A DNA stretch of 29,004 nt from Nitrospinota bacterium. GTDB taxonomy: Bacteria > Nitrospinota > Nitrospinia > JACRGO01. A model generated the notes under the pieces. The model saw only the letters and a program-made list of their open reading frames with translations, made no database searches and was not told the origin of the DNA. The position numbers and the translations under genes were made by a program. Below are positions 4,216 through 26,312 of the stretch, in pieces (the first letter of the stretch is position 1; the number at the start of each line of letters is the position of its first letter). The DNA is taken from NCBI GenBank assembly GCA_016212295.1, contig JACRGO010000166.1:1-29004 (forward strand). Reading direction: 5' to 3'.

Positions 4216-5166
4216 TCATGTATGCTTATTTTTGGCGTTTACTATAAACAACTTTTTCCGCGCCACGTGGATCGCTGCTTCCCTCAAACGCGGAAGATAC
4301 TCCCTGCGGATTGAGTCCATTCCCCGGTAAATATCCAGCTTTTCCTTGTCAACGCTGCAGACGGCGCCGTATTCCCGCGCCTTTTCCGCTATGTCCGAAC
4401 CGGCCTTGGCGATGGTGCTGCAGATTACCACCGGCTTGGGATAGTGCCGGGAAAGCTTTTTAAGGAAGGCAAGGCCATTCATCTTAGGCATGATTATGTC
4501 GAGGCTGATGACGTCCGGGTCGGTTTCCAGGATCAGGTTACGCGCCTCGAAGGCGTCGCGGGCCTCTCCGCAAACCATCATCCCCGGCTCATGCTCCACG
4601 GACAATTTAAGGATTTTTCTCACAAGCGGCGAGTCATCCACAATGAGCACCCGTATATCGCGGGAGGCCATGGTCCGGCGTTTATTTTCAAGCGCCTCGG
4701 TTTCCCGGGACTTCTCGATCATCCGCACCCTGACCTTGCCGGTCATGGTGTCCATGTATATCCTGCGGCCATTCGTGCCTCCGACGTCCTCATCCACGAT
4801 GTTGATGCCGTGTTCGCATAGAATTTTTCTTGCCACTTTAATGTTTCTTTCCCCGATAGTGGCGGCGGCTCCCAGGTGTCCTATAACTGCCCCGCCCCCG
4901 TATACCCCGGCCTGGAGTTTTTTTATGTCCGGGCTGAGTTTCTCCATGAGCCGGATGATGAGGCTGGTGGAGGAGTCTCCATAACGGCCCTGGTCCTCGC
5001 CCCCCTCTGGAAATTCCGCGAGGAGGAAGTGGTTCATGGCGGCGTAGCGCTTTGTGGTATGCCAGAGGGTCACGCCCACGCAACTGCCCAGAAGGGTCGC
5101 TATTTCACAGCTTGAGCGTGAAACACGGAATTCACCCGGCAAAAGAAATTTTCGTTCACCAATCAT
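4216..5166 (-). CDS. CheD deamidase fused to a CheB-type receiver domain
   Basis: 316 residues from the ATG at 5166. A GTG 25 codons further upstream would begin inside a heptamer array, and AAGGG lies 8 nt before the ATG. Residues 1-155 are CheD: the catalytic Cys29 in LLGSCVGVTLW, His46 in AAMNHFLL, and the GGGAVIGHLGAAATIGERN segment. CheD deamidates receptor glutamines and binds CheC phosphatases. Residues 171-295 are a receiver closest to the CheB N-terminal domain: VLIVDDSPLVRKIL, phosphoacceptor Asp223 in SLDIIMPKMNGLAFL, and GAVCSVDKEKL. The CheB methylesterase domain that normally follows is absent. No other chemotaxis gene is nearby. It is the last gene of the operon with the kinase and REC-phosphatase, so phosphorylation may gate the CheD activity (inference). 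Confidence 0.88.
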   Translation of the reverse strand: MIGERKFLLPGEFRVSRSSCEIATLLGSCVGVTLWHTTKRYAAMNHFLLAEFPEGGEDQGRYGDSSTSLIIRLMEKLSPDIKKLQAGVYGGGAVIGHLGAAATIGERNIKVARKILCEHGINIVDEDVGGTNGRRIYMDTMTGKVRVRMIEKSRETEALENKRRTMASRDIRVLIVDDSPLVRKILKLSVEHEPGMMVCGEARDAFEARNLILETDPDVISLDIIMPKMNGLAFLKKLSRHYPKPVVICSTIAKAGSDIAEKAREYGAVCSVDKEKLDIYRGMDSIRREYLPRLREAAIHVARKKLFIVNAKNKHT

Positions 5167-5181
5167 TTTTAAAACCCTTAA

Positions 5182-5251
5182 TAGTAACAAGTGACGAGTT
5201 ACAAGTGACAAGTAAAACTCGTCACTCTTTTTACTAGTCACTCGTCACTAT
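5182..5251. repeat. Heptamer array with inverted halves between kinase and CheD-REC genes
   Basis: Ten consecutive 7-bp units in phase. The left half (+ strand) uses AAGTGAC/GAGTTAC-type units. The right half uses their complements (ACTCGTC, TCACTCG, TCACTAT), so the array can fold into a hairpin. It fills the gap between the kinase stop (5250-5248) and the CheD-REC start (5166) and includes the kinase stop codon. Confidence 0.8.
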
Positions 5252-6174
5252 CTTTCAAGCTTTGGAATCCTCAACATTATGGCCGTGCCATTGCCTGGCG
5301 AGGAGTCGATCCACATCCTGCCGCCGAATTTCCGGACTACGTAATACGCCTTGGTCAAACCGAACCCGCCGCCTTTTGTTTCCCTGTCCTCCACGTTGGA
5401 GGCCCGGTATCCGAAACGCACCGATTTGGCTATCTCGCCTTCTGGAATGCCAAGACCGTTGTCCGAGACCTCCAGGACGACTTCATTTTCATTGCATTCC
5501 AGCAGGGCCTTGATCCTGCCGCCCACAGTGGTGTATTTGCGGGCGTTTGCCACAAGGTCGCGCAGCGTGTCCTGAAGCACGATAGGAATGAACATGGACC
5601 CGTCCTCTTTCACCCCGCTCAAGCTCAATTGGACCAGGTAGCCGGAATCCGTTTTGTCCCCTTCCTCATACACTATGCCGAAGCGTCCTCGCGAATTGGC
5701 GGCCACGGCCTCCAGGAAGAGCCGGAGATTGCTCTTGATGTCCTCCGCCTGTATGGAGATCCATTCGCCAGGGGCCTCTCTCAAAAGAAACAACTCCCTC
5801 ACGCGGGTATGCAGCACGTCCATGACGCCTTCGATGTTCTTCGCAAGTTTATCCATTTCCTCGCAACGGGCCGGAATAAAGGAGGAATCCTCCAGCGCCT
5901 TCAGCAAAATATGGTCCACCTCCTCGCGGAAGACGGCCTCGAGGCTTTCAATATGGTCGATGGATTCCCTGGTCTTTTCACGGCTGTGGAAAGATGAGAT
6001 CAGGTCCCGGCAGATTTCAAGGCTTTTGGAAAGACCGCCGGGGCGTCCGGCGGCATTTTCCAGAAGCAGGAACCTAGAGGCCAGCACGTTGACGGCATTG
6101 AAGAGGGAGTGGGCCGCCACGAGGGCGGTTTCTTCCTCTGAAAGCTCAATCGGCTCCGTTATTTCAAGCTTCAT
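5248..6174 (-). CDS. Soluble histidine kinase without sensor domain
   Basis: 308 residues from the ATG at 6174, which overlaps the stop of the upstream gene as ATGA. An upstream TTG would lengthen it into that gene and is less likely. It has no signal peptide or membrane segment. AAHSLFNAVNVLASRF (20-35) resembles a DHp H-box with His22 as candidate phosphorylation site. A long helical region follows (35-150). The HATPase domain shows an N box (LRDLVANARKYT, near 204-215), G1 (SDNGLGIP, near 239) and G2 (GGGFGL, near 271), then GGRMWIDSSPGNGTAIMLRIP. It probably phosphorylates the receivers of the genes on either side. The input signal is not encoded in the protein; a partner must supply it. 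Confidence 0.88.
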   Translation of the reverse strand: MKLEITEPIELSEEETALVAAHSLFNAVNVLASRFLLLENAAGRPGGLSKSLEICRDLISSFHSREKTRESIDHIESLEAVFREEVDHILLKALEDSSFIPARCEEMDKLAKNIEGVMDVLHTRVRELFLLREAPGEWISIQAEDIKSNLRLFLEAVAANSRGRFGIVYEEGDKTDSGYLVQLSLSGVKEDGSMFIPIVLQDTLRDLVANARKYTTVGGRIKALLECNENEVVLEVSDNGLGIPEGEIAKSVRFGYRASNVEDRETKGGGFGLTKAYYVVRKFGGRMWIDSSPGNGTAIMLRIPKLER

Positions 6175-7190
6175 TTTATCTTCATATCCCGAAGAAATTT
6201 TGCCACGCCGGAAATGGAAAGGGAAATATCGTGGCAGCACACTCTATAATCGTGCATGGATTTTCTCTTTCCCACCGGATCGACGATATCCAGGCGCTTG
6301 TTACCGTCCAGTTTGAATTCGCTTAACATGAAAGCCTTTTCCCTGGTGAACGGGTATAATTCCGCCAGGGAATTCAAATGATTTTTCTCCATCACAAGAA
6401 TCAGGTCCGCCTCCCGCGCGAGGTCTTTCGTTATGGACTTGGACCGGTGATTGGCAAGGTTTATGTTCATTTTGGAAAGGACATGAAGGATGCCGTCAGG
6501 AAGCGTGGAACCGGGGCTGGCCTGAAGTCCGGCGGATTGAGCGCGGATGGCGCTGTCCCCCATTCTTTTCAACTGGCGATTGAAAAGGAACTCCGCGATG
6601 GGGCTTCTGAAAATATTGGCCTTGCACAAGAATAAAACTTCTTTTATTCCTCTTTGGGCAATCTTCCTCAGCTCCATAGGCCATTCAACCGCTTTTTCGA
6701 TTTTTTCTTTTTTCATGGCCGCGCCAATTTCCTTGGACCGGGAAGAGGCCAATATCTCCCTTGGAGGGCCGGCGATACGGTCTTTCAGGGATTCGTTTTC
6801 CCGGAGCAATTGGTCGATCATGACCTTGGTCCTGAGTTGCGCCCGTACCCTTGCGAGCAGGATTTTCAAATCGCAGGGTTTGGTGACGTAGTCATCCGCC
6901 CCCTTGTCCAGCCCTTCCACGATATCCTCTATATTTGAACAGGAGGTCAGCATGATCACCCTTATATAAGAGGTGGAATACTGGGACTTGAGTTTCTCCA
7001 ACAACTCGATGCCGCCCATTTCCGCCATCATTTTGTCCAGGATCAAGAGGTCCGGCTGGGATTCCAATTCCTTTTCAATTGCCTCTCTGCCGTTATTGGC
7101 CACCATGACGAAATATCCGGCCTTACTCAGGCAGTGGACTATAAGCTTTTGTAACGACAGATCGTCTTCCACCACAAGGATATTGCTCAT
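6171..7190 (-). CDS. Response regulator: receiver fused to low-molecular-weight protein tyrosine phosphatase
   Basis: 339 residues from the ATG at 7190. AGGAG is 5 nt upstream; a GTG two codons earlier would sit on the ribosome binding site. Residues 1-120 are a receiver: Glu8/Asp9/Asp10, phosphoacceptor Asp52 (LLILDKMM), Thr82 and Lys104 (VTKP). Residues 120-180 are a helical linker. Residues 183-339 are a LMW-PTP/ArsC-fold phosphatase with P-loop LCKANIFRSP, keeping Cys189 and Arg195-Ser196. The usual Gly and second Cys of the loop are Ala and Phe. The general-acid Asp304 is in DIVDPVG, with Tyr315 following. LMW-PTPs such as Wzb dephosphorylate bacterial tyrosine kinases that control exopolysaccharide export. 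Catalytic residues are intact, so activity gated by Asp52 phosphorylation is likely (inference). It is first in the operon. Confidence 0.9.
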   Translation of the reverse strand: MSNILVVEDDLSLQKLIVHCLSKAGYFVMVANNGREAIEKELESQPDLLILDKMMAEMGGIELLEKLKSQYSTSYIRVIMLTSCSNIEDIVEGLDKGADDYVTKPCDLKILLARVRAQLRTKVMIDQLLRENESLKDRIAGPPREILASSRSKEIGAAMKKEKIEKAVEWPMELRKIAQRGIKEVLFLCKANIFRSPIAEFLFNRQLKRMGDSAIRAQSAGLQASPGSTLPDGILHVLSKMNINLANHRSKSITKDLAREADLILVMEKNHLNSLAELYPFTREKAFMLSEFKLDGNKRLDIVDPVGKRKSMHDYRVCCHDISLSISGVAKFLRDMKIK

Positions 7191-7300: not shown

Positions 7301-7370
7301 TCAGGTTTCAGGTTTCAGGTTTCAGGTTTCAGGTTTCAGGTTTCAAGCGTCAGGCGTCATAATTCATAAG
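7301..7370. repeat. Heptamer array, TCAGGTT units
   Basis: Ten 7-bp units in phase: six perfect TCAGGTT copies (7301-7342), then TCAAGCG, TCAGGCG, TCATAAT and TCATAAG. It lies between the divergent starts at 7190 (-) and 7569 (+). Together with 7495-7557 it forms an inverted pair. Confidence 0.95.
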
Positions 7371-7494
7371 ACAGAAGACTCTGCTGCCTCCACAGTGGCG
7401 AAGCCCTGTGGAGCCACAATGCCGGAAACTAAACTCAGTATGGCTCCATAGCCCTGGCAGGACTATTGAGCCGGCAAGGAAGTTACTGGTTTTC
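7371..7494. repeat. Palindromic spacer between two inverted heptamer arrays
   Basis: Contains nested small inverted repeats: CCACAG/CTGTGG (7390-7395 with 7406-7411) and TGGAGCCA/TGGCTCCA (7409-7416 with 7441-7448). No convincing gene is present in 7197-7568. A weak minus-strand promoter for the REC-PTP operon may lie near 7225-7260 (TACAAT with a poor -35). Confidence 0.55.
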
Positions 7495-7557
<63 letters not shown>

Positions 7558-14699: not shown

Positions 14700-17171
14700 A
14701 TGAAAAAAAACAATCTAAAAGCGAAACCATCAGCGCCAAGGCTTTCAAGGACCCATAAGCCGGAGGGCATTGATCTGGCGGAATGGCAGAGGGCGCTCAG
14801 AAAGCAGTATGGGGTCCAGATAAATTATACGCTTAAAAACACCGGCGTCCACCCGATTTTTTCCGAATTCCTGGCCGCCAATCCGGACACAGGCAAAAGT
14901 TACAAAATCGCCATCCGGGGAGAGAGGCCGGGAGAAAACTACTGTTCCTGTCCCGATTTCGCCATTAACAATCTCGGCACCTGCAAGCATATTGAGTTCA
15001 CGCTTTCGCGGCTTCTGCGAAAACGGGGGGCCAGGAGAGCGTTGCTGGAGGGCTTCTCTCCCCCGTACTCCGAAGTCTATCTGAGTTACGGCATGAAGCG
15101 GGAGGCGCGGTTCAAGGCCGGGAAGGACGCCCCCAGGGAACTTCTTGATCTCGCGGACAAGTTCTTCGATCGTGACGGCGCGTTGCGGGAAGACCACATC
15201 CTCGATTTCCACCGGTTTCTCGAAAATCTTCCAAGGAACACTGGCCATGAGGTGAGATGTTATGACGATGTGATGGGCTACATCGCCGAACACCAGGATG
15301 AGGCCCACAGGCGGAAGCTTGTAAGGGACAGCCTGGGACATGGCATCGAGAGTCCGATCCTCGACAAAGTCCTGAAAACTGAGCTTTACCCCTACCAGAA
15401 AGAGGGGGCCATGTTCGCCGTCAATGCCGGGAGATGTCTCCTCGGCGACGATATGGGGCTTGGAAAAACCATCCAGGCCCTGGCCGCTTCGGAGCTCATG
15501 GCGGAGCTATTTCAAATCCAAAAAGTCCTGATTGTCTCTCCCACCTCCCTTAAGTACCAGTGGAAGGATGAGATACAAAGGTTCACGGGAAGGACCGTGG
15601 AGGTGATAGAAGGACTAAACCATCGGCGCCGGTCCCTTTATACCAGCGAATCCTTTTACAAGCTGGTCAACTATGAATTGGTCCGGAGGGATATCGATCT
15701 GATCAACGAATGGGCACCAGATCTGATCATCCTCGACGAGGCCCAAAGGATCAAGAACTGGGAAACCCGCACGGCGAAGTCCGTTAAACAGCTCGCATCG
15801 CCTTATGCCATGGTTCTTACCGGCACCCCCATTGAAAACCGCATCGAAGATCTCCATTCCCTGATGGAATTCGTGGACCGGCGCCGCCTGGGTCCCCTCT
15901 ACCGGTTTGTCCATGACCACAGGATGATGGATGAGGCCGGAAAAGTGGTGGGGTACAAGGACCTCCAATCCATACGGGCGTCCCTTAAAGGCGTGCTGAT
16001 CCGGAGACGCAAGGGCGATGTGCTGAAGCAGCTCCCGGGGCGGATAGACAAGAACTTCTTTGTTCCCATGACCAACGAGCAGAGGATCATCCATGACGAG
16101 AATTGCGATATCGTCACGCGGCTGGCGGCCAAGTGGCGCAGGTATAAATTCCTGTGCGAGGCGGACCAGCGGAGACTCCAGATCGCCTTGAATTTCATGC
16201 GGATGGCGTCGGACAACACCTATCTTGTCGACCGGAAGACGGTCCACGGCCCGAAGCTGGAAGAGTTGGACATCGTGTTGAAGGAGACGGTGGTCGAGGG
16301 GGGCCAAAAGGTCGTGATCTTCAGCCAATGGCTCCGCATGACCGAACTGGTGGAACGGGTCCTGGCCGCCAACAATATCGGCTACGCGCATTTGAATGGA
16401 AGCATCCCGTCGAGGGAGAGAAAGGACCTGATGGCCCGATTCAGGGAAGACCCGGATTGTAAGGTTTTTCTTTCCACCGACGCTGGCGGCGTGGGCCTGA
16501 ACCTCCAAAGCGCCTCCACAGTCATCAACATGGACATACCGTGGAATCCCGCCATACTGGAACAGCGCATAGGCCGGGCCCACAGGCTTGGACAAAAAAG
16601 GACCGTGCAGGTCATAAATTTCATCACCTCCTCTTCCATTGAAGAGAGGATCCTGCACCTTTTGAAATTCAAGAAATCGGTCTTCGCGGGAAGCCTGGAC
16701 GAGGACGGAGAAGACGTGGTCATGGCCGGGGAGTCACAGCTTGCCAAACTCATGAAAGGCGTGGAAGCCATGACCCAGGACCTTGAAAGACCCGATCCGG
16801 AAACGGAAAGGCAAGAAAAGTTTGAGGCGGAACAGGACGCGAAGGCCGTAGAAACAGGCGATAAGGCTATTCAGGGCGAGCAGATGGGCGGGGAGCCCGA
16901 AGGGTCCCAGCCCAGAGTATCGGGAAAGAAGCCGGAGTCCCTGGAAGACCTTTTCCTGGCGGGCGCCAGGTTGTTGTCCGATTTGGGAAGGGCCATGTCC
17001 GGGGATGGCGCGACCCTGAAGGCGTCCGTTGAAAGCTTGGTACGGCGGGATGAGAAGGACGGAAAGGACTATCTGCGAATACCTTTGCCGGAGGCGGACA
17101 TCGTCAAAAATCTTTTCTCCTCCCTCGGTGATCTGGTGGCCGACGCCATGCAGGGGAAGAAGAGGGGATAG
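14700..17171 (+). CDS. SNF2-family DNA translocase/helicase with N-terminal SWIM zinc finger
   Basis: 823 residues. Residues 82-97 (CSCPDFAINNLGTCKH) are a SWIM zinc finger with Cys82, Cys84, Cys95 and His97. The Snf2 ATPase core follows: GDDMGLGKT (249-257, Walker A), PTSLKYQW, DEAQ (346-349), TGTPIENR (374-381), FSQW (541), STDAGGVGLN (592-601) and QRIGRAHRLGQ (622-632). It would use ATP to translocate on duplex DNA and remodel DNA-protein complexes. SWIM-Snf2 proteins are widespread in bacteria, mostly uncharacterised, and Snf2 proteins also occur in anti-phage systems. Residues 690-823 are a charged tail without recognised domain. It is 6 bp after the cytochrome-like gene and 3 bp before mntA. 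No strong ribosome binding site is visible. Confidence 0.93.
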   Translation: MKKNNLKAKPSAPRLSRTHKPEGIDLAEWQRALRKQYGVQINYTLKNTGVHPIFSEFLAANPDTGKSYKIAIRGERPGENYCSCPDFAINNLGTCKHIEFTLSRLLRKRGARRALLEGFSPPYSEVYLSYGMKREARFKAGKDAPRELLDLADKFFDRDGALREDHILDFHRFLENLPRNTGHEVRCYDDVMGYIAEHQDEAHRRKLVRDSLGHGIESPILDKVLKTELYPYQKEGAMFAVNAGRCLLGDDMGLGKTIQALAASELMAELFQIQKVLIVSPTSLKYQWKDEIQRFTGRTVEVIEGLNHRRRSLYTSESFYKLVNYELVRRDIDLINEWAPDLIILDEAQRIKNWETRTAKSVKQLASPYAMVLTGTPIENRIEDLHSLMEFVDRRRLGPLYRFVHDHRMMDEAGKVVGYKDLQSIRASLKGVLIRRRKGDVLKQLPGRIDKNFFVPMTNEQRIIHDENCDIVTRLAAKWRRYKFLCEADQRRLQIALNFMRMASDNTYLVDRKTVHGPKLEELDIVLKETVVEGGQKVVIFSQWLRMTELVERVLAANNIGYAHLNGSIPSRERKDLMARFREDPDCKVFLSTDAGGVGLNLQSASTVINMDIPWNPAILEQRIGRAHRLGQKRTVQVINFITSSSIEERILHLLKFKKSVFAGSLDEDGEDVVMAGESQLAKLMKGVEAMTQDLERPDPETERQEKFEAEQDAKAVETGDKAIQGEQMGGEPEGSQPRVSGKKPESLEDLFLAGARLLSDLGRAMSGDGATLKASVESLVRRDEKDGKDYLRIPLPEADIVKNLFSSLGDLVADAMQGKKRG

Positions 17172-17462: not shown

Positions 17463-17911
17463 CATCTGAAGCCTTAATGATAAAAGAACTGAAAGAAGAT
17501 TTTAACAGATTGGACCGCGCTGTCAGGGTTTTAAAATATTCATTGCAGCAATGCCTGAAAATAGGGATAAAGATAGATTACTCATTAGAAGAACTGGACA
17601 GATTTGAAAGCCTTACTTCCAGGTTTGCCAGGACAAGCGATATTTATACACAGAAAATAATGAAAGGGATAATACTGATATTAAGGGAAGATTCCAACAC
17701 TTTCATAGATAGAGCTAATTTGTTTGAAAAGCTGGAGATATGCGGCGCGGAAGATTTAAAATTGATAAGGGACTTAAGAAATGAAATATCCCATGAATAT
17801 AAAATAGACGATATCACTGAAATATTTGAATCCGTGATTGAATATACCCATAAGCTTATGGAAATCATCGAAAGGACAGAGGTGTTTGCTAAAAATAAAT
17901 GCTTGATATAG
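17459..17911 (+). CDS. hepT: HepT-type HEPN ribonuclease toxin
   Basis: 150 residues, all helical. The HEPN active site RNEISHEY near residues 110-117 fits RX4HXY exactly: Arg and His form the RNase site and the Tyr is the residue MntA adenylylates in characterised pairs. Length and position after MntA are typical. Both genes appear intact, so this is the only complete toxin-antitoxin module in the window. It could serve plasmid-like maintenance of the adjacent segment or anti-phage abortive infection; the sequence does not decide. Confidence 0.88.
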   Translation: MTSEALMIKELKEDFNRLDRAVRVLKYSLQQCLKIGIKIDYSLEELDRFESLTSRFARTSDIYTQKIMKGIILILREDSNTFIDRANLFEKLEICGAEDLKLIRDLRNEISHEYKIDDITEIFESVIEYTHKLMEIIERTEVFAKNKCLI

Positions 17912-17921
17912 AATTCATCGT

Positions 17922-17951
17922 TTGACATGATTTGCTTCTTAAGTTTAAAAT
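17922..17951 (+). promoter_or_regulatory. Candidate promoter of the Phd/PIN relic
   Basis: TTGACA (17922-17927), 18-nt spacer, TAAAAT (17946-17951). Transcription would begin close to the relic's ATG (17958), and no ribosome binding site is visible. Confidence 0.4.
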
Positions 17952-17957
17952 CAATCC

Positions 17958-18101
17958 ATGTTAAAGTTGAATATCCATGAGGATAAAACCCATCTATACA
18001 AGTATGTAAACCGCCTTGCCGAAAACGATTTCATGGGCTCAAAATAGCTTTTTGGTCCTCTCCCAAGGGACATCGAACTCTCTTTTTATGGAAAATCATG
18101 A
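17958..18101 (+). pseudogene. Phd/YefM-type antitoxin relic, internally deleted with in-frame stop
   Basis: ATG at 17958. Residues 2-20 (LKLNIHEDKTHLYKYVNRL) match the N terminus of Phd/YefM antitoxins (usual form NIHEAKTHLS). After 29 codons there is a TAG (18045-18047). The same frame continues with FGPLPRDIELSFYGKS and a TGA at 18099-18101, the usual C-terminal tail of Phd proteins paired with PIN toxins. The middle 30 or so residues are missing. The TGA overlaps the toxin ATG as ATGA, so the operon layout survives. Confidence 0.8.
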
Positions 18102-18295
18102 AGCTTATTTTGGATACCTGCGCCTTTCTTTGGGTTTTAAGCGACCCTCTTAAACTTTTCGAAAAAGCCAGGAATTTTTTTTCAGACCCAGCAAACACCC
18201 CCATCGAACAAAGGAAAATAGAGCGCGGCCTGAAGGAGGCCGGGATCCGTTTGAAGGGGGCGTATGTGGAAGATATGGGTGTCGGATCAAAGTAA
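18098..18295 (+). pseudogene. Chimeric PIN toxin remnant fused to copied cytochrome-like C terminus
   Basis: A 65-residue frame. Residues 1-32 (LILDTCAFLWVLSDP, then LFEKARNFFSDPAN) are the N terminus of a VapC/PIN ribonuclease toxin with its first catalytic Asp. From residue 33 the sequence switches to TPIEQRKIERGLKEAGIRLK and on, nearly identical to the C terminus of the protein encoded at 14151-14693. The rest of the PIN domain, with its other catalytic acids, is missing, so no RNase activity is expected. The junction lies at about 18195, the start of the 83-bp repeat. It is in frame, so a chimeric protein could be made. Confidence 0.85.
18195..18277 (+). repeat. 83-bp direct repeat, copy 2 (inside the PIN remnant)
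   Basis: 77 of 83 positions match 14602-14684. The six differences are scattered, so the duplication is not recent, or one copy has drifted without selection. Confidence 0.95.
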
Positions 18296-18377
18296 ATACA
18301 AAATTGGCGTGTTTTATGGATAGTGGTTTCCTTGGCTGCAGGAGGGAAATCTGATAAAACAATAGAAAGGTATTTTC

Positions 18378-19778
18378 TTGAATAATAGATTTATCTCGTA
18401 TCGGGACTTTAAAATATTTTCACTGGCCAATATTTATTTTTTTTTGTTTCTTATTTTTGGGTTTGTTTTATATGGTTGCTCAGAGACCGTTGCTCCAAAT
18501 GTTATTTTAATTACAGTTGATACTTTGAGACCGGATCATTTGAGTTGCTATGGATATCCTCGCCGTACAAGTCCTAATATTGATAAAATCGCATCCCAAG
18601 GCATTCTCTTTGAAAATGTAGTAGCCCAATCTAGTTGGACCCTGCCATCCGTTGCCTCCATTCTTACATCAAGGTTTCCTGGAGAGCTGAGAATGGTAAA
18701 TTCCTTCTCAAAATTTAGAGATGAATCATTAAGGATAGCCACAATTTTGCAAGAAAGAGAATTTTATACAGCGGCATTTATTTCCGGTGGCTTAATCTCT
18801 GCTTCAAGAGGATTTGACAAAGGATTTAACACATTTACGGACATAGTAGGCAGGGCAGAGGTTATTAATTCACACGTTTTTAAGTGGTTGAATCAAAAAA
18901 GGGATAAACCGTTTTTTTTGTGGGTTCATTATTTTGACGTTCACTCTGATTACGATGCCCCTCCACCATTTGACAAACGATTCGATGAAACCTTTTCTGA
19001 TCTAAAAATTGGCAGGACTGATTATTTGCTAAATGTTATAAAAAATGGATTGAAATTGCCTCCAGCAGAAATTTCAAAAATAAAATTACTTTATGACAGG
19101 GAAATCCTCTATACTGACCATCATATTGGAAAATTATTAGAAAGACTTAGAAAAAAACAAGTATTGGATAATTCTATTTTAATAATAGGCGCTGACCATG
19201 GCGAAGAGTTTATGGAGCATAGCAAGATGGGCCATTCTTTTACCCTATATGACGAAGTGGTAAAAGTGCCTCTAATAATAAGATATCCAGCTAAGCTTTC
19301 TAAAAGCAAAAAAATTTCGCAACAAGTCCAAAATTTAGATATACTGCCTACTATTTTAGATCTAATATCAGTTGACTTCATAGATTTCCAATTCAGGGGA
19401 AGAAGTCTTTTGCCATTGATTGAAGGAAAACTGGAAATGGATCAGTTCGCATTTTCTGAAACTCAGCCATTAGGGGAGTGGCTTAAAGATAGAGAAGAAT
19501 GGCCAAATAATATATTTAAGTCATTATATATGATTAGAACAAACAAAAATAAGTTGATTTTTGATGAGAAAAACAAATCTTGGGAATTTTTCGATTTAGC
19601 GGCGGACTCTGGAGAAAAATTTAACAAGTATTCTGAAAGTATTACCCAGGATAATGATTTCAAAAAAGCATTATTGGCTTGGAAAAAATCCTTGCAAGTG
19701 AAATTTTTAGTAAATGAAGAAATTGAAAAAAAGCAGAGTGAAATTGAAAAATTAAGGTCTTTGGGATACATAAACTAA
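18378..19778 (+). CDS. Sulfatase-fold (alkaline phosphatase superfamily) lipoprotein
   Basis: 466 residues. The TTG start at 18378 has AAAGG 8 nt upstream and there is no ATG near. A hydrophobic segment (20-33) ends in LYGC (Cys34), probably a lipoprotein. NVILITVDTLRPDHLSCYGY (41-60) gives the metal Asp. SSWTLPSVAS (85-94) is the active-site stretch, with Thr88 where true sulfatases have the Cys/Ser converted to formylglycine. GADHGEEF and MGHSFTLYDEVVKVPLI are the remaining metal-site motifs. The C terminus IEKLRSLGYI is typical of this lipoprotein group. With Thr as nucleophile it is more like a phosphotransferase or phosphodiesterase than an arylsulfatase. It is first in the glycan cluster, so it may modify the finished glycan. 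Confidence 0.85.
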   Translation: MNNRFISYRDFKIFSLANIYFFLFLIFGFVLYGCSETVAPNVILITVDTLRPDHLSCYGYPRRTSPNIDKIASQGILFENVVAQSSWTLPSVASILTSRFPGELRMVNSFSKFRDESLRIATILQEREFYTAAFISGGLISASRGFDKGFNTFTDIVGRAEVINSHVFKWLNQKRDKPFFLWVHYFDVHSDYDAPPPFDKRFDETFSDLKIGRTDYLLNVIKNGLKLPPAEISKIKLLYDREILYTDHHIGKLLERLRKKQVLDNSILIIGADHGEEFMEHSKMGHSFTLYDEVVKVPLIIRYPAKLSKSKKISQQVQNLDILPTILDLISVDFIDFQFRGRSLLPLIEGKLEMDQFAFSETQPLGEWLKDREEWPNNIFKSLYMIRTNKNKLIFDEKNKSWEFFDLAADSGEKFNKYSESITQDNDFKKALLAWKKSLQVKFLVNEEIEKKQSEIEKLRSLGYIN

Positions 19779-19816
19779 ATATATGCGAGAATCAACCACA
19801 TTAATTTTTTGGCAGC

Positions 19817-20566
19817 GTGAAAAACATGTTTGACCAGCGGTTATTATCGACTTTAAAAAAAATAATCCCACAATTTATTCAAAAAAGGATAGATCCTTTT
19901 GAAGCATTAGGAAATTCATTTTTAAAAAAGGCAAACGAAGAAACTTCTCCTGATGCTTTGGTACTAGACGCTGGAGCCGGAGAATGCGAGCATAAAGCCT
20001 TTTTCAACGGCAAAAAGTATATCTCAATAGACTTTGCCGAGGGCGACGCCTCTTATAATTACAGAAATCTGAGCATAATAGGGGATTTGCATAAATTGCC
20101 CTTTAAAGACAATATTTTTGAAATTGCCATAAATATTGTTGTCCTGGAGCATTTGAGGGAACCGAAAGATGCCTTAAAGGAACTGTACAGAGTTATAAAA
20201 CCAGGGGGACTGCTTTATATAAAAGTGCCTTTTTGTTGGGAAGAACATCAATATCCTTATGATTTTTTCAGGTTCACATCCTTTGGCCTTCGCTACCTTT
20301 TAGAGGCATCCAAATTTGAAGTTATTTCCTTGGAGCCAATTGGAGGATTTTTTTGGCTCCTTGGTAGAAGGCTGATGGGTGTTTTGCAATTTTTTCAGGA
20401 AGGATGGAAATATATATTTTTTTTACTTTTAGCGCCAATTTTTGGACTATTTCTTCCTATCGCATGTTATTACCTTGACCATTTTGATAAAGAACGCAAT
20501 TACACCATGGGATATCTTTGTATAGCGCAGAGACCGGAAAAATATGGGGAGTTGAGCAAGGAATGA
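19817..20566 (+). CDS. Class I SAM-dependent methyltransferase with C-terminal membrane segment
   Basis: 249 residues from GTG at 19817; an ATG three codons later is equally possible and neither has a strong ribosome binding site. LVLDAGAGECEHKAFF (about 49-64) is motif I of the Rossmann SAM site. LHKLPFKDNIFEIAINIVVLEHL and ELYRVIKPGGLLYIKVP are motifs II-III of the UbiE/Methyltransf_11 type. Residues 190-225 contain hydrophobic stretches (YIFFLLLAPIFGLFLPIACY), so it may sit at the membrane. The stop overlaps the next gene as ATGA. The substrate is probably a glycan or its lipid carrier, inferred from neighbours. Confidence 0.85.
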   Translation: MKNMFDQRLLSTLKKIIPQFIQKRIDPFEALGNSFLKKANEETSPDALVLDAGAGECEHKAFFNGKKYISIDFAEGDASYNYRNLSIIGDLHKLPFKDNIFEIAINIVVLEHLREPKDALKELYRVIKPGGLLYIKVPFCWEEHQYPYDFFRFTSFGLRYLLEASKFEVISLEPIGGFFWLLGRRLMGVLQFFQEGWKYIFFLLLAPIFGLFLPIACYYLDHFDKERNYTMGYLCIAQRPEKYGELSKE

Positions 20567-21993
20567 AAAAAATATTATTTATGAGACCCCAGGCACCAGG
20601 ACCACGCTTTACGCCGTTTGGGATTTTGTACCTAACCGCATATATCAAAAAAAATGAATATCCCGCTGAAATCAATCTTCTTGATCTTAGAGGCCGATCA
20701 TTAACGCGGCAGCAAATTTCCTGCGAAGTTGAAAACTTCAAACCTGACTTAATCGGAATTTCTTCACTGAGCACGGAATCTTTACCCACCCATGAACTGG
20801 TTGGGATTTGCAAGCAGGTTTTGCCAAATACCCCAGTTGTAATAGGGGGACCTTATGCCTCGGCCGAATGGCAATATGTGCTCGAAGATACCCAAGTGGA
20901 TTACTCTATAGTGGGGGAAGGAGAAAAAAACTTCTTGGAATTCCTGAAATACATGGGAGACGGGCGTAATCCTGAAGGCCTGGATGGGGTGGCATCGCGG
21001 GATGACTCCGGCAAGGCCATGTTAAGCGCTTCACGCACCTTCATTACCAACTTGGATGAAATTCCTTTTCCTGCATATGAATTGATAAACATTGAAGAAT
21101 ATTCTTGCAAGGCTAATTCCCATCTTCCTGCTTTCGATGTTAATAAACGTTTTACCCAAATGTTTACCTCGCGTGGATGCCCTTATCTTTGCAGCTTTTG
21201 CCATAACATTTTTGGCAAAAAAATTCGATATCGTAGTATAAGCAACGTCATGCAGGAAATGGACTGGTTGGTTAATAAATACGGAATTGAAGAAATACAC
21301 TTTGAGGATGATTCATTCAATATGGATTTGGAGCACGCAAAAAATATTTGCAGTGAAATTATCAAAAAAAATTATAAATTAAGATTTGCGTTCCCTAATG
21401 GAATCAGGGCTGATCATGTTGATGAGGAACTGGTTGATCTGTTTTGCCGGATGGGTGTGTATAGCGTGGGGTATGGAATAGAGTCCGCGAGTAAGGCAAT
21501 TAGAAAAAGAATCAAGAAGGCGCTAAACTTAGATAAACTGAACAAGGCCATTAGCCTTACAGCAAGGCGAGGCATTGTTGTTTCAGGATTTCTCATGGTC
21601 GGATTTCCGAATGAAACGGAGAAAGAGATAGAGGAAACCATACTTTTTGCCTGCAAATCCAAGCTTCATATAGCCATCTTTAGTCGCGTTATACCTTTTC
21701 CCGGCACGGAACTTTACAATGAGGTACTCCGGCTTGGCTTTCATTACAACAGGGAATTATTCAATAAAATAATGTTTGAAAAGGCGGCAATCAATTTTTC
21801 AGAACTCTCGAATGAGCAGTTGGAAGCGAAAATTCGATCCGCCATGCGTAGATTCTATTTAAACCCATTTAGATTGCTTAGAATTTTTCTTGTTTATCCT
21901 GGAAAGATAGGGCTTTTTTCTGAAGGACTAAGGGTAATTAAAGAAAAATTGCTTGGTTTGCACTCAAGCACAAATAATCATGGCTGTAAATAA
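20563..21993 (+). CDS. B12-binding-domain radical SAM enzyme
   Basis: 476 residues from the ATG at 20563. An earlier start lies inside the upstream gene. Residues 1-135 have the cobalamin-binding Rossmann pattern (PDLIGISSLS, VVIGGPYAS, VGEGEKNF) but no DxHxxG, as in many of this class. GCPYLCSFC (205-213) supplies the CxxxCxxC for the 4Fe-4S cluster (Cys206, 210, 213). FEDDSFNMD and YGIESASK are the usual barrel strands. Such enzymes often methylate unreactive carbons or rearrange lipid or antibiotic precursors. Placed between two methyltransferases and glycosyltransferases, this one may make a C-methylated or otherwise unusual sugar or lipid (inference). Confidence 0.9.
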   Translation: MKKILFMRPQAPGPRFTPFGILYLTAYIKKNEYPAEINLLDLRGRSLTRQQISCEVENFKPDLIGISSLSTESLPTHELVGICKQVLPNTPVVIGGPYASAEWQYVLEDTQVDYSIVGEGEKNFLEFLKYMGDGRNPEGLDGVASRDDSGKAMLSASRTFITNLDEIPFPAYELINIEEYSCKANSHLPAFDVNKRFTQMFTSRGCPYLCSFCHNIFGKKIRYRSISNVMQEMDWLVNKYGIEEIHFEDDSFNMDLEHAKNICSEIIKKNYKLRFAFPNGIRADHVDEELVDLFCRMGVYSVGYGIESASKAIRKRIKKALNLDKLNKAISLTARRGIVVSGFLMVGFPNETEKEIEETILFACKSKLHIAIFSRVIPFPGTELYNEVLRLGFHYNRELFNKIMFEKAAINFSELSNEQLEAKIRSAMRRFYLNPFRLLRIFLVYPGKIGLFSEGLRVIKEKLLGLHSSTNNHGCK

Positions 21994-22023
21994 ACAAAAA
22001 GATAGTTTCAAAGGACACATCAT

Positions 22024-22881
22024 TTGGGACAGTATAATATTGTTAAGGGGCAAGATTTTGAACTATGGCAGAAAGATATGGCCTTTTGCGCTCCAGGAGG
22101 GAAAACCCCTGTAATAGGTTGGGATTATCCTGAATACTATTTGGCTCAAGTAACCTTTAAGGCGGAAGAAGTGGAAAGAAATCCCAAAGCTCCACGATGG
22201 GAAAAGGCACAAAAGGCTGAAATCAATTTTTGGAGGAAATGGAGAAAAAATATTCTTTATAAAAATATAACCCCAGATACCGATTGGGCTGAGGTTTTGA
22301 AAAGGACCGGTGGGCCCCTACCCGCTGGCAAAGTACTGGATATTGGTTGCGGCCCTATATCGGTTTTAAATTTCTTTCGAGGAGATGGCATGCGACCCAT
22401 CGGCATAGATCCTCTGGCGGAATTATATGCTCGTGAACAAATAGTGGAATGGAAAAAAGGGTGGGAACCAATAACCATGGTTAGTCTCTCCGCGGAAAAG
22501 CTCCCTTTTGCCAACGAATATATGGACCACTTGATTTGTTTTAACGTATTGGACCATGTTGCGGATGCGGTTGCTATGCTGAAGGAAATGTTACGAGTAT
22601 TAAGGCCTGGTGGAACAATAAGAATTTACATTCATACCTTTTCACGTTGGCTTAAAAAACTCCTTTTTTTTGATTCTCCACATCTTTCCCATTGGGAGCA
22701 TATAGAATTTTCAAAACTTTTAGAGTCTTCAGGTTTAGAAATTATACAGGAAAATATAGAGTCGGCATTATTTTTTGAATTGCCTTCAGGCTTTTATGCT
22801 ACCTTAAGATATTTCTCATACTGGATAGCTTCTAAGGCAGTTAAAACTAGTTATTTTCTTTTGAAGAAACCCAATGGGTAA
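22024..22881 (+). CDS. Class I SAM-dependent methyltransferase
   Basis: 285 residues. The TTG at 22024 is the only usable start after an in-frame stop at 22003, and AAAGGA lies 8 nt upstream. An N-terminal region of 100 residues, rich in Trp and charged residues, precedes the SAM domain: VLDIGCGPISVLNFF (motif I, about 104-118), IGIDPLAE, LSAEKLPFANEYMDHLICFN and EMLRVLRPGGTIRIYIH. It is a Methyltransf_11-type enzyme with unknown acceptor. It overlaps the next gene by 8 bp, so the two are probably co-translated. Confidence 0.88.
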   Translation: MGQYNIVKGQDFELWQKDMAFCAPGGKTPVIGWDYPEYYLAQVTFKAEEVERNPKAPRWEKAQKAEINFWRKWRKNILYKNITPDTDWAEVLKRTGGPLPAGKVLDIGCGPISVLNFFRGDGMRPIGIDPLAELYAREQIVEWKKGWEPITMVSLSAEKLPFANEYMDHLICFNVLDHVADAVAMLKEMLRVLRPGGTIRIYIHTFSRWLKKLLFFDSPHLSHWEHIEFSKLLESSGLEIIQENIESALFFELPSGFYATLRYFSYWIASKAVKTSYFLLKKPNG

Positions 22882-24544
22882 AAAATATACTGATATGAAT
22901 CAAAAAGTAAAAAAAGATTTTTTTTTCTTATTGCTGGTAATATTATTTACCACATTGCCATTTTTAAACAAGCCATTTAATATTGATGATGCCCAATATT
23001 TTGAAATTGCCAGTTGGATTGATATAAACCCTTTCAATGTTGCAAAACATGATTTTGGTTGGCTGGGGCAGCAAATTAAAGGCGGGCTTATTTATGAAAC
23101 TAGCCATCCTATTTTATTCTTTTATTTTTTGAACGTTATTTCCAAAATTGGGCATGCCAATAGCGAGGCGATATACCATCTTATCTATATTTTTTTCCCC
23201 ATTTTAATAGCAGTATCATTTTATTTTATTGCAGCTAAATTTATTGAAAAACCTCTATATGCGGTTTTGCTACTTCTCGCAATGCCAGGGTATTTGGCAT
23301 GTTCTCACACTATAATGGCTGATTCCCCCACGTTATCTTTTTGGCTATCAGCTGTTTGCTTATATATTTATGGATTAGATGGCCGGAAAAAATGCTTATA
23401 CTTGACAATGGTCCCAGTTTTTTTTGCTTTGGGCTTTTCATATCAATCCCTTAGTTTAATCCCGCTATTATTGTTTTGGGCGTTGATCAAGCGCCAAATC
23501 TCGTGGAAAACTTTGTTGCCTGTCATAATTCCTGCCGGGATTTTTTTTGGGTACTTGGCCATTATTTATAAGATGCACGGGGTTTTCCCTTTTTTCGCCA
23601 ACATACGCGATTACAATATTAAAAATCTGATCTTGTCTCCCAATTATAGCCAGACACTCGGCCTTAAGACCATTTATATTTTTAGTTCCGTTGGGTCAAT
23701 GCTTTTAATTCCTTCCATTTTGTTTCTTTCCATGGAGTTAAAAGCTTCAAAAGGCAAGCTGATTATTTTGGGGGGAGTTATTTTTTGTTTTTTAATTTCC
23801 TTGGAATTTATAAGTGATTATTCCTTTTTTTACAAATTCCTTTTTTCCATTTATTTTATCTCAGGATTTTTTATTATTGTTAAGTCTTTTTCGGGGCTTA
23901 AAAAAAATTTAAAAATTTATGGCAAAAATATGGATGCAATGGCCCCTTTTTTTTCAGTATGGTGTTTGGGGATAATTTTTTACAATATTTTTATAATGCC
24001 AATGGGCGCGATTCGTTTCTTGCTCCCACTCTTTCCTCCTTTGATTTTGTTGTTTTTAAAAAAATTTGAAATAGATACAAAATGGAGGCACCAAAAAAAA
24101 ATTTTGGTCGTCTTTTTTGCCCAAATGGCATTTTCCCTATCGGTTGCCAGAGCCGATTACGAGTTTGCCTCCATATACAAAGACTTTAGCAAAACCATAC
24201 CGACATTGGTATCCGAAAAAGACCACGATATTTATTTTTCCGGAGAATGGGGATTTCGCTATTACATGAAAAAGGAGGGCTATATTTATTTTTTAAACGA
24301 ACATCATTCCCCAAAGACGGGTGATTTTATTATTCAACCTACTCTGGCGTATTTTGAACAAAGGCCAGAGAGTGTGGCTTCAAGGTTGAAACTTATAAAA
24401 ACCAAGGATTATAAAGGAGATATCCCATTACGCTTGTTTAATTTTGAGGCCAAAGGAGGATTTTGGTCGCATGACCATGGTTTGCTGCCTATTTCCATTG
24501 GAAATAATATAATTGAGTCGTTTAAAATATACCAAGTATCGTAG
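22874..24544 (+). CDS. Polytopic GT-C glycosyltransferase (ArnT/PMT-like)
   Basis: 556 residues with about eleven hydrophobic helices between residues 15 and 420, then a soluble periplasmic-type tail. NIDDAQYFEIA (37-47), just after the first helix, carries the Asp-Asp expected in the first extracytoplasmic loop of GT39/GT83 enzymes, which use polyprenyl-phosphate sugars to glycosylate lipid or protein on the outer face of the inner membrane. ETSHPILFFYFLNV and MADSPTLSFWLS follow the same family pattern. The lipid-linked sugar donor could be made by the DPM-like genes in this window. It is very AT-rich. The acceptor is unknown. Confidence 0.85.
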   Translation: MGKKYTDMNQKVKKDFFFLLLVILFTTLPFLNKPFNIDDAQYFEIASWIDINPFNVAKHDFGWLGQQIKGGLIYETSHPILFFYFLNVISKIGHANSEAIYHLIYIFFPILIAVSFYFIAAKFIEKPLYAVLLLLAMPGYLACSHTIMADSPTLSFWLSAVCLYIYGLDGRKKCLYLTMVPVFFALGFSYQSLSLIPLLLFWALIKRQISWKTLLPVIIPAGIFFGYLAIIYKMHGVFPFFANIRDYNIKNLILSPNYSQTLGLKTIYIFSSVGSMLLIPSILFLSMELKASKGKLIILGGVIFCFLISLEFISDYSFFYKFLFSIYFISGFFIIVKSFSGLKKNLKIYGKNMDAMAPFFSVWCLGIIFYNIFIMPMGAIRFLLPLFPPLILLFLKKFEIDTKWRHQKKILVVFFAQMAFSLSVARADYEFASIYKDFSKTIPTLVSEKDHDIYFSGEWGFRYYMKKEGYIYFLNEHHSPKTGDFIIQPTLAYFEQRPESVASRLKLIKTKDYKGDIPLRLFNFEAKGGFWSHDHGLLPISIGNNIIESFKIYQVS

Positions 24545-24558
24545 CCATATTTAAAAAA

Positions 24559-25272
24559 ATGGGCGATTTAACATTTTGCCCCTTAGTGAGTGAAAAAATG
24601 TATAGAGATAACCGGATTACCGTAATTGTTCCATGCCTGAACGAAGAAGATGCCATTGGCAAAGTAATAGAGAGCATTCCAAAGCTTGTGGACGAAATCA
24701 TTATTGTTGATAATGGCTCGGAAGACAGGACAGCAAAAATTGCCGAAGAATTGGGCGCCAAGGTCATCCATGAGCCAAACAGGGGATATGGAAGGGCTTA
24801 TAAGGCAGGATTCAAGAACGCGGTTGGAGACATTATAATTACCCTTGATGGCGACCATTCCTACCCCGCGCAGGATATTCATCTTTTGATTGACTTTTTA
24901 TTGAAAAAAAACGCTGATTTTCTTTCCGCCTCGCGCTTCCCATTAAAAAACAAAGAAAGCATGTCTTTTAAACATTATGTTGGAAATAAGATGCTTTCTT
25001 TTACCATGTGTCTATTGTTTCATGTTTGGATAGAGGATTCGCAGAGCGGTATGTGGGTTTTCAAGAAAAATATTCTGGATAAAATGAAACTGAGAAGCAA
25101 TGGCATGGCCTTTTCCGAGGAAATCAAGATTGAGGCCCTGATTAGAAAGGACGTAAAATTCATCGAAAAACACATCTCCTACTCCAACCGGGTCGGAGAA
25201 AAAAAATTGCAGCCCTACAGGGATGGCATGAAGAATATCCTGTTCCTGTTTAAAAAGAGATTCTTCGGATGA
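24559..25272 (+). CDS. GT2 glycosyltransferase, DPM1/DPG-synthase type
   Basis: 237 residues from the ATG at 24559; the ATG at 24598 (13 residues later, right before the conserved ITVIVPCLNEEDAIG) may be the real start. VDNGSEDRTAKIAEELGA, EPNRGYGRAYKAGF, TLDGDHSYPAQDI and DSQSGMWVF are motifs of the polyprenyl-phosphate glycosyltransferase group. There are no long transmembrane helices. It probably makes the lipid-linked sugar used by the GT-C gene before it. It ends in an ATGA overlap (25269-25272) with the next glycosyltransferase. The AT-rich stretch ends here. Confidence 0.9.
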   Translation: MGDLTFCPLVSEKMYRDNRITVIVPCLNEEDAIGKVIESIPKLVDEIIIVDNGSEDRTAKIAEELGAKVIHEPNRGYGRAYKAGFKNAVGDIIITLDGDHSYPAQDIHLLIDFLLKKNADFLSASRFPLKNKESMSFKHYVGNKMLSFTMCLLFHVWIEDSQSGMWVFKKNILDKMKLRSNGMAFSEEIKIEALIRKDVKFIEKHISYSNRVGEKKLQPYRDGMKNILFLFKKRFFG

Positions 25273-26312
25273 CCCCTGGCGCCAGGAACAACAACCCGTT
25301 GATTTCCGTTGTCATTCCCAATTGGAATGGAAAGAAATTCCTCCCAGCCTGCCTGGACTCCCTTAAACGCCAGTCCTACCCGAACCTTGATGTCATAGTG
25401 GTAGACAACGGGTCCACCGACGGTTCTGTTCAGTATTTAAAGGAAAACTATCCCGGTTTTGTTAAGATAGTCGAGCTTCAGGAAAACCATGGGTTCGACA
25501 GGGCTGTCAACGAGGGGATCAAGGTTTCCAAAGGCGCTTATATCGCCACTTTGAACAACGATACCGAGACCCATGAGGATTGGATAAGGGAACTGGCCAA
25601 GGGTTTCGATCATGGCGACAGGGTGGGAATGTGCGCGTCCAAGATTTTGTTTTACTTTAACAGGGACATCATCGATAAGACAGGCCACGTCATGTACCTA
25701 GACGGGCTCAACAAGGGAAGAGGGGCCATGCAAAAAGACAACGGTAAGTTCGAGGTTTGCGAGGAGGTTTTTTTCCCTGACGGATGCGCGGCTTTGTATA
25801 AGCGGGAATTATTCGACGAGGTGGGGCTTTTTGATGAGCGTTTTTTCGCGTATGGAGACGATGCGGAATTGGGATTCCGGGCAAGACTTTTCGGCTGGAA
25901 GTGTGTTTATATGCCGTCCGCCGTTGTGTACCATATCCACTCGGGAACGACAAGCCCCTATTCCAAATTGAAGGTTTTTCTGGTGGAAAGGAATAGGTTT
26001 TGGCTGGCCCTGAAGTTGTTTCCCTTGCCTTTCCTTTTGGCCACGCCGTTTTACACTGCCCTTCGATTTTACTGGCATTCCTACAGCGCCTTTTTCCAAA
26101 AGGGCTCCGCTGGACGCTTCAGAAAGGAATTTTCATCAGTGGAATTGGTCCTGGTCCTCATGAAGTCCTATCTGTCGGGCCTGAAAGGGCTGCCTTATAT
26201 CCTGGGGAAGAGAAGGGAAATCCTAAGGAAAAAAGCCGTGAACAACCGGCAAATAAAGGAATGGTTTTCCAGATTCGGCATCAGCGCGAAAGACATAGCC
26301 TTAATCGATTAA
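25269..26312 (+). CDS. GT2 glycosyltransferase, rhamnosyltransferase-like
   Basis: 347 residues. ISVVIPNWNGKKFL (13-26), VVDNGSTDGS, ENHGFDRAVNEGI, TLNNDTETHEDWI, FFPDGCAALYKRELFDEVG and YGDDAELGFRARLFGW are the motifs of WbbL-like rhamnosyl- or hexosyltransferases that extend O-antigen or capsule chains. A hydrophobic stretch (about 240-262) may associate it with the membrane. The first residues (TPGARNNN) are encoded by a heptamer-type stretch also present at 10482-10502, so the very N terminus is probably not conserved. It is coupled to the upstream gene by a 4-bp overlap. Composition is GC-richer than the genes before it. Confidence 0.9.
   Translation: MTPGARNNNPLISVVIPNWNGKKFLPACLDSLKRQSYPNLDVIVVDNGSTDGSVQYLKENYPGFVKIVELQENHGFDRAVNEGIKVSKGAYIATLNNDTETHEDWIRELAKGFDHGDRVGMCASKILFYFNRDIIDKTGHVMYLDGLNKGRGAMQKDNGKFEVCEEVFFPDGCAALYKRELFDEVGLFDERFFAYGDDAELGFRARLFGWKCVYMPSAVVYHIHSGTTSPYSKLKVFLVERNRFWLALKLFPLPFLLATPFYTALRFYWHSYSAFFQKGSAGRFRKEFSSVELVLVLMKSYLSGLKGLPYILGKRREILRKKAVNNRQIKEWFSRFGISAKDIALID
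25272..25285. repeat. Two heptamer units at a glycosyltransferase 5' end
   Basis: ACCCCTG then GCGCCAG, the same units as at 10482-10502 with one unit missing. It includes the palindrome CCTGGCGCCAGG. It is too short to be a tandem array on its own and is recorded because of the match. Confidence 0.4.

Follow-up and report, generated by a model that had tools for sequence, protein, structure and literature searches.

The 29,004-nt stretch of Nitrospinota bacterium DNA analysed here (the window; GCA_016212295.1, contig JACRGO010000166.1) carries three adjacent genes (Table 1), and it is well supported that the conserved unit among them is a two-gene module. In this module, a gene for a soluble histidine-kinase-like protein precedes one for CheD-REC, a fusion of the chemoreceptor deamidase CheD with a receiver domain. 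The CheD-REC proteins are a family of their own, apparently an undescribed one. Judging from the genomes searched, the third gene, encoding a receiver fused to an LMWPTP phosphatase (REC-LMWPTP), was added locally; it is likely to be co-transcribed with the pair but is not a conserved partner of it.

Table 1. Genes and junctions of the three-gene operon in the window
Feature	Position	Strand	Basis or content
REC-LMWPTP fusion, 339 aa	7190-6171	-	Pfam Response_reg 5e-25 and LMWPc 1e-27
Soluble histidine-kinase-like protein, 308 aa	6174-5248	-	Pfam HATPase_c only, 4e-18
CheD-REC fusion, 316 aa	5166-4216	-	Pfam CheD 7e-21 and Response_reg 6e-20
ATGA overlap, REC-LMWPTP stop/kinase start	6171..6174	-	Read from sequence
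81-nt kinase/CheD-REC gap	5167..5247	-	Contains imperfect 23-nt inverted repeat

Domain matches in all three genes are well over curated cut-offs, with E-values and motifs far beyond what chance would give, and active-site residues are intact in all five domains (numbered here from the window translations); the three-gene observation is thus confirmed. The earlier note had placed these genes in one unit; open reading frames on one strand, Pfam domains and catalytic motifs bear out the three genes. The preferred starts are ATG 7190 (REC-LMWPTP), ATG 6174 (kinase) and ATG 5166 (CheD-REC). The CheD-REC frame extends open to GTG 5241, and the starts of relatives align with 5166. The kinase ATG shares bases with the TGA of the upstream REC-LMWPTP gene (AAAATGAAG), and this overlap is likely to couple translation of the two. 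No terminator-like sites were found between the three genes on the minus strand; the inverted repeat in the kinase/CheD-REC gap was considered and rejected, as it was not called terminator-like. The sites on that strand fall within the kinase reading frame, and their overall number is at chance frequency. REC-LMWPTP is likely to lie in one transcription unit with the kinase/CheD-REC pair. Genes for MCP, CheW or CheR were not found among the neighbours of the operon in the window. A riboswitch or RNA leader was rejected (no Rfam match in the window), as was a defence system (PADLOC matches weak and at domain level only).

Upstream of the operon, two intergenic arrays of 7-nt repeats (TCAGGTT and TCCTGAC, at 7301-7356 and 7493-7552) are partly complementary. 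Elsewhere in the window, positions 14700-17171 encode a helicase of the SNF2 family that weakly matches a SWIM zinc finger. At 17500-26000, where sulfatase-like, methyltransferase, radical-SAM-like and glycosyltransferase-like genes follow one another, the G+C content falls to 0.36-0.43, against about 0.50 before; this stretch looks like a compositionally foreign island for surface glycans.

The CheD domain of the window's CheD-REC is N-terminal (PF03975, 74.9 bits against a cut-off of 25) and the receiver is C-terminal. The CheD part has T24, C29 and H46, the established catalytic triad of CheD, and the receiver has D177, D178, D223 and K274. Across 32 proteins, the catalytic T and H are found in all and C in 31, and the receiver D/D/D/K residues are kept. 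In one CheA-linked CheD-REC (L087, 7983-8915) the catalytic Cys is replaced by Ser and the rest is kept. The receiver is of the CheB type (NCBIfam CheB, 1e-33), and a CheB methylesterase domain is absent, Pfam finding CheD and Response_reg only. When one genome per species was scanned, at least about 30 fused loci emerged; among the matches listed, the carriers are Nitrospinota, Nitrospirota, Adiutrix and other deltaproteobacteria, together with records titled as Planctomycetales, Omnitrophota, Hydrogenedentota and Lentisphaeria. CheA lies directly upstream of CheD-REC in at least 20 loci of the main branch, two from the window's genus included. At two loci (L082 and L093) the run goes on with CheR, CheD and CheB, so CheD-REC coexists with the ordinary enzymes. 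A CheA-linked CheD-REC is present in the complete chromosome of Deltaproteobacteria bacterium Smac51 (L089), and the window's own genome also has a CheA-CheD-REC cluster, near a gene that by sequence encodes a PilB-like ATPase.

The receivers of all 24 CheD-RECs tested fall into a single clade (100/99) within the CheB receivers, and CheD-REC thus looks like a CheB whose methylesterase has given way to CheD. In trees of CheD-REC, seven proteins, the window's among them, make up a type-2 clade (100/100), within which the kinase-linked CheD-RECs are one clade (99/97). In the receiver tree, the type-2 receivers have a long branch of their own (0.56). The simplest history would be that neighbouring cheD and cheB genes fused and the methylesterase domain was lost. 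In the window's own genome, one contig (C148) has separate CheD and CheB-receiver reading frames as overlapping neighbours, a plausible source of the fusion. Loss of CheC as the reason for the fusion was rejected, CheC being present in 11 of 20 genomes with no pattern. Chemoreceptor matches were found in all six genomes with a type-2 CheD-REC (9 to 33 per genome).

The kinase gene is directly upstream of CheD-REC, on one strand, in at least four genomes (the window's, G001, Nitrospinales nzgw265 at L065, and G399 at L180), the neighbourhood counts being lower bounds. Two of these, nzgw265 and G399, come from a phylum with 24 genomes searched; because the phylum of G077 and G399 excludes the window's genome, no fewer than two phyla have the pair. 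In G001, a sister genome from the window's genus, the kinase is 44% identical to that of the window and CheD-REC is 69% identical over the CheD part, the pair lying at a contig end. In G399, the pair is adjoined by a divergently oriented gene (L180, 4819-5934) for a CheR methyltransferase with a weak CheD-like N-terminal part. Two further genomes (G078 and G079) have between them three type-2 CheD-RECs without an adjoining kinase, and both encode the kinase elsewhere.

Few genomes carry the kinase: four phylum-wide searches found it in 2 of 77, 1 of 297, 2 of 24 and 4 of 246. Within the window's phylum it is found in both genomes with a type-2 CheD-REC and in none of the 75 without (Fisher p = 3e-4, with genome relatedness ignored and CheD-REC itself searched in 60 of the 77 genomes). 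Among 24 genomes with a CheD-REC, it is found in 3 of 3 with type 2 and in 2 of the 21 others (p = 0.005, relatedness again ignored). Four genomes (G088, G090, G602 and G645) have the kinase without a type-2 CheD-REC, so the kinase family is not tied to it, and in the kinase tree the CheD-REC-associated members are not one clade (2 changes).

REC-LMWPTP has the receiver residues D9, D10, D52 and K104, and both marks of an LMWPTP, the CX5R(S/T) loop and the DP general acid, are present in its phosphatase part (C189-x5-R195, reading C189KANIFR195S, and D304-P305). Of the 77 genomes searched in the window's phylum, the window's own has the fusion and the 76 relatives are without it; it was also found in 0 of 23 further genomes searched, among them most CheD-REC genomes and the other kinase carriers; both searches returned single domains only. 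None of the best 5000 plasmid records covered 80% of the protein. G001 has the kinase/CheD-REC pair without REC-LMWPTP and a rubrerythrin-like gene upstream instead. Its match to both the REC and LMWPTP domains, away from the pair, consists of two adjacent genes and was rejected as a fusion, as a single stop codon divides them. These genes (L036 1205-2164, G001:C519) share a frame, and a glycosyltransferase-like gene adjoins them. The receiver of REC-LMWPTP resembles PhoB/PleD-like receivers; that of CheD-REC falls within the CheB receivers. The earlier note had proposed the trio as a signalling system whose genes should co-occur in relatives. The neighbourhood survey upheld this for the kinase/CheD-REC pair and not for REC-LMWPTP, all three genes being found together in none of the relatives searched, an outcome that the note had named as refuting, and a conserved three-gene system is given up. 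Tyrosine dephosphorylation, which the note had made part of the pathway, falls outside the conserved pathway, because the fusion is private to its own genome among those searched and is not conserved with the pair.

The window's kinase consists of an N-terminal helical bundle with the H-box AHSLFN (H22) and a C-terminal HATPase_c in which the N, G1 and G2 boxes expected of a histidine kinase are present (N210, D238xGxG and G268xGxGL). H22, S23, N26, R124 and E127 are common to all ten rows of the N-terminal alignment, the HSxxN H-box being invariant, and H22, N210 (N box), DxGxG and GxGxGL are invariant in all seven rows of the full-length alignment. Seven members gave no match to the DHp families HisKA, HisKA_2, HisKA_3 and HWE (Pfam, E<=1), and beyond HATPase_c they gave chance-level coiled-coil matches only. 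The window kinase lacks the CheA domains Hpt (P1), H-kinase_dim and CheW, all of which occur in the CheA that the paralogous cluster of the same genome encodes. The view that this kinase lacks a sensor domain stands, its entire N-terminus being a predicted helical bundle.

The C-terminal half of the kinase, in an AlphaFold2 model (pLDDT 89), matches HK853 and WalK/YycG with Z about 16.5. The first 140 residues modelled alone give a single-chain helical bundle (pLDDT 85), which matches PDK/BCKDK with Z about 10.5 (many matches at Z 9-10.7, rmsd 2.7-2.9 over 118-122 residues), a score that designed and unrelated bundles also reach. The fold match thus does not separate kinship with PDK from a common helical-bundle arrangement. 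There is an earlier description of a monomeric histidine kinase, cited in PMC10359499, and a monomer would therefore not be unprecedented.

The explanation that we favour, with moderate confidence, is a kinase/CheD-REC module in which CheD is gated by phosphorylation and the small kinase provides a second input to adaptation. We infer the substrate and input signal of this model, its phosphotransfer and the direction in which it switches from the genes, domains, motifs, family, tree, neighbourhoods and chemoreceptor presence observed. CheD-REC would be a response regulator with a receiver inherited from CheB and the deamidase CheD as its output, and would deamidate chemoreceptor glutamines. 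In the main branch, CheA would most likely phosphorylate the CheD-REC receiver and thereby switch the action of CheD on chemoreceptors, forming a CheB-like feedback arm. In the window's branch, the small non-CheA kinase would take the place of CheA, autophosphorylating H22 in the helical bundle and then phosphorylating CheD-REC at D223. In this way a second, non-array signal would reset receptor modification. REC-LMWPTP may take phosphate from the same kinase. The module suggests that chemoreceptor tuning in some bacteria is driven by a second kinase and not solely by CheA. We offer as doubtful the broader idea that a family of sensorless, possibly monomeric kinases, with the phosphoacceptor in a single-chain helical bundle, replaced CheA in controlling a phospho-gated CheD, giving adaptation one input from the array (CheA) and another from the cytoplasm.

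Counting against the favoured explanation are the lack of MCP, CheW and CheR genes beside the operon, the occurrence of the kinase family apart from type-2 CheD-RECs and the failure of the CheD-REC-associated kinases to form one clade. In addition, both CheD-RECs could receive their phosphate from the CheA encoded in the paralogous cluster. The adjoining kinase-like protein would then be an anti-kinase, phosphatase or phosphotransferase for CheD-REC, or would serve another regulator. The presence of a CheA-CheD-REC cluster in the same genome and the occurrence of the kinase family apart from type-2 CheD-RECs fit such an arrangement, but every family member aligned over its full length keeps H22 and the N, G1 and G2 boxes, a sign of active kinases, and the long separate branch of the type-2 receivers is expected if the partner kinase changed; we hold this arrangement to be improbable. 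A very improbable alternative is that the three genes are one branched phosphorelay, in which both receivers take phosphate from the kinase, which thereby links tyrosine dephosphorylation with the deamidation of receptors. It would account for the ATGA overlap, the single strand, the lack of a terminator-like site between the genes and the phospho-acceptor sites kept in both receivers, but not for a REC-LMWPTP fusion found in no other searched genome, a pair that stands without it in three other genomes, and receivers that differ in type.

CheD-REC might also act mainly through binding, with receiver phosphorylation moving CheD on or off the receptors as an intramolecular analogue of the CheC/CheY-P control in Bacillus subtilis. 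There, CheY-P controls CheD through CheC by raising CheC-CheD affinity, and binding by CheD outweighs its deamidase activity in importance (PMC3513319). This precedent points towards binding, as does the L087 protein, in which Ser replaces the catalytic Cys and the remainder is retained. Against it, the other 31 of 32 proteins all keep the catalytic T, C and H, which argues for retained catalysis, and the mixed occurrence of CheC means that its loss is not the explanation. We consider binding as the main mode of action somewhat unlikely.

In textbook chemotaxis, CheB is the adaptation enzyme coupled to the kinase through its own receiver, and CheD is under indirect control via CheC. A CheD bearing the receiver of CheB would solve the same feedback problem a second way, and the sub-branch with a non-CheA kinase would offer a genetic handle on feeding a non-receptor signal into receptor adaptation. 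Given the CheA-linked form in the complete Smac51 chromosome, the favoured explanation may therefore be partly testable outside metagenomes. In the literature covered, with most subscription papers outside its scope, we found no paper on CheD fused to a receiver or on a receiver-LMWPTP regulator; domain databases such as InterPro may list the architectures. The parts are of known kinds, and the combination and the kinase-linked branch look new in chemotaxis adaptation.

Compared with LMWPTPs and ordinary receivers, REC-LMWPTP has a standard receiver and a standard CX5R phosphatase, but the two are fused and were seen solely in its own genome among those searched. The kinase shares with orthodox two-component histidine kinases (WalK, HK853) a HATPase_c with all boxes, but has no Pfam dimerisation/phosphoacceptor domain, sensor or membrane part, and its HSxxN H-box sits in a 137-residue predicted single-chain helical bundle. 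Mitochondrial PDK and BCKDK have the same order, a helical bundle and then HATPase_c, although identity to them is only 6-7% and the bundle Z is within the range of unrelated bundles. CheD-REC has the CheB-type receiver of CheB, a chemoreceptor as expected substrate and, in the main branch, a place behind CheA; it differs in carrying CheD instead of the methylesterase and in having its receiver C-terminal, whereas that of CheB is N-terminal. With the CheD of Bacillus subtilis and Thermotoga maritima, which is under CheC/CheY-P, it shares the T/C/H residues and, as we infer here, control by a phosphorylated receiver. In CheD-REC, however, the kinase beside the window's branch is not CheA, and the receiver is fused, so that CheC is unneeded as a link.
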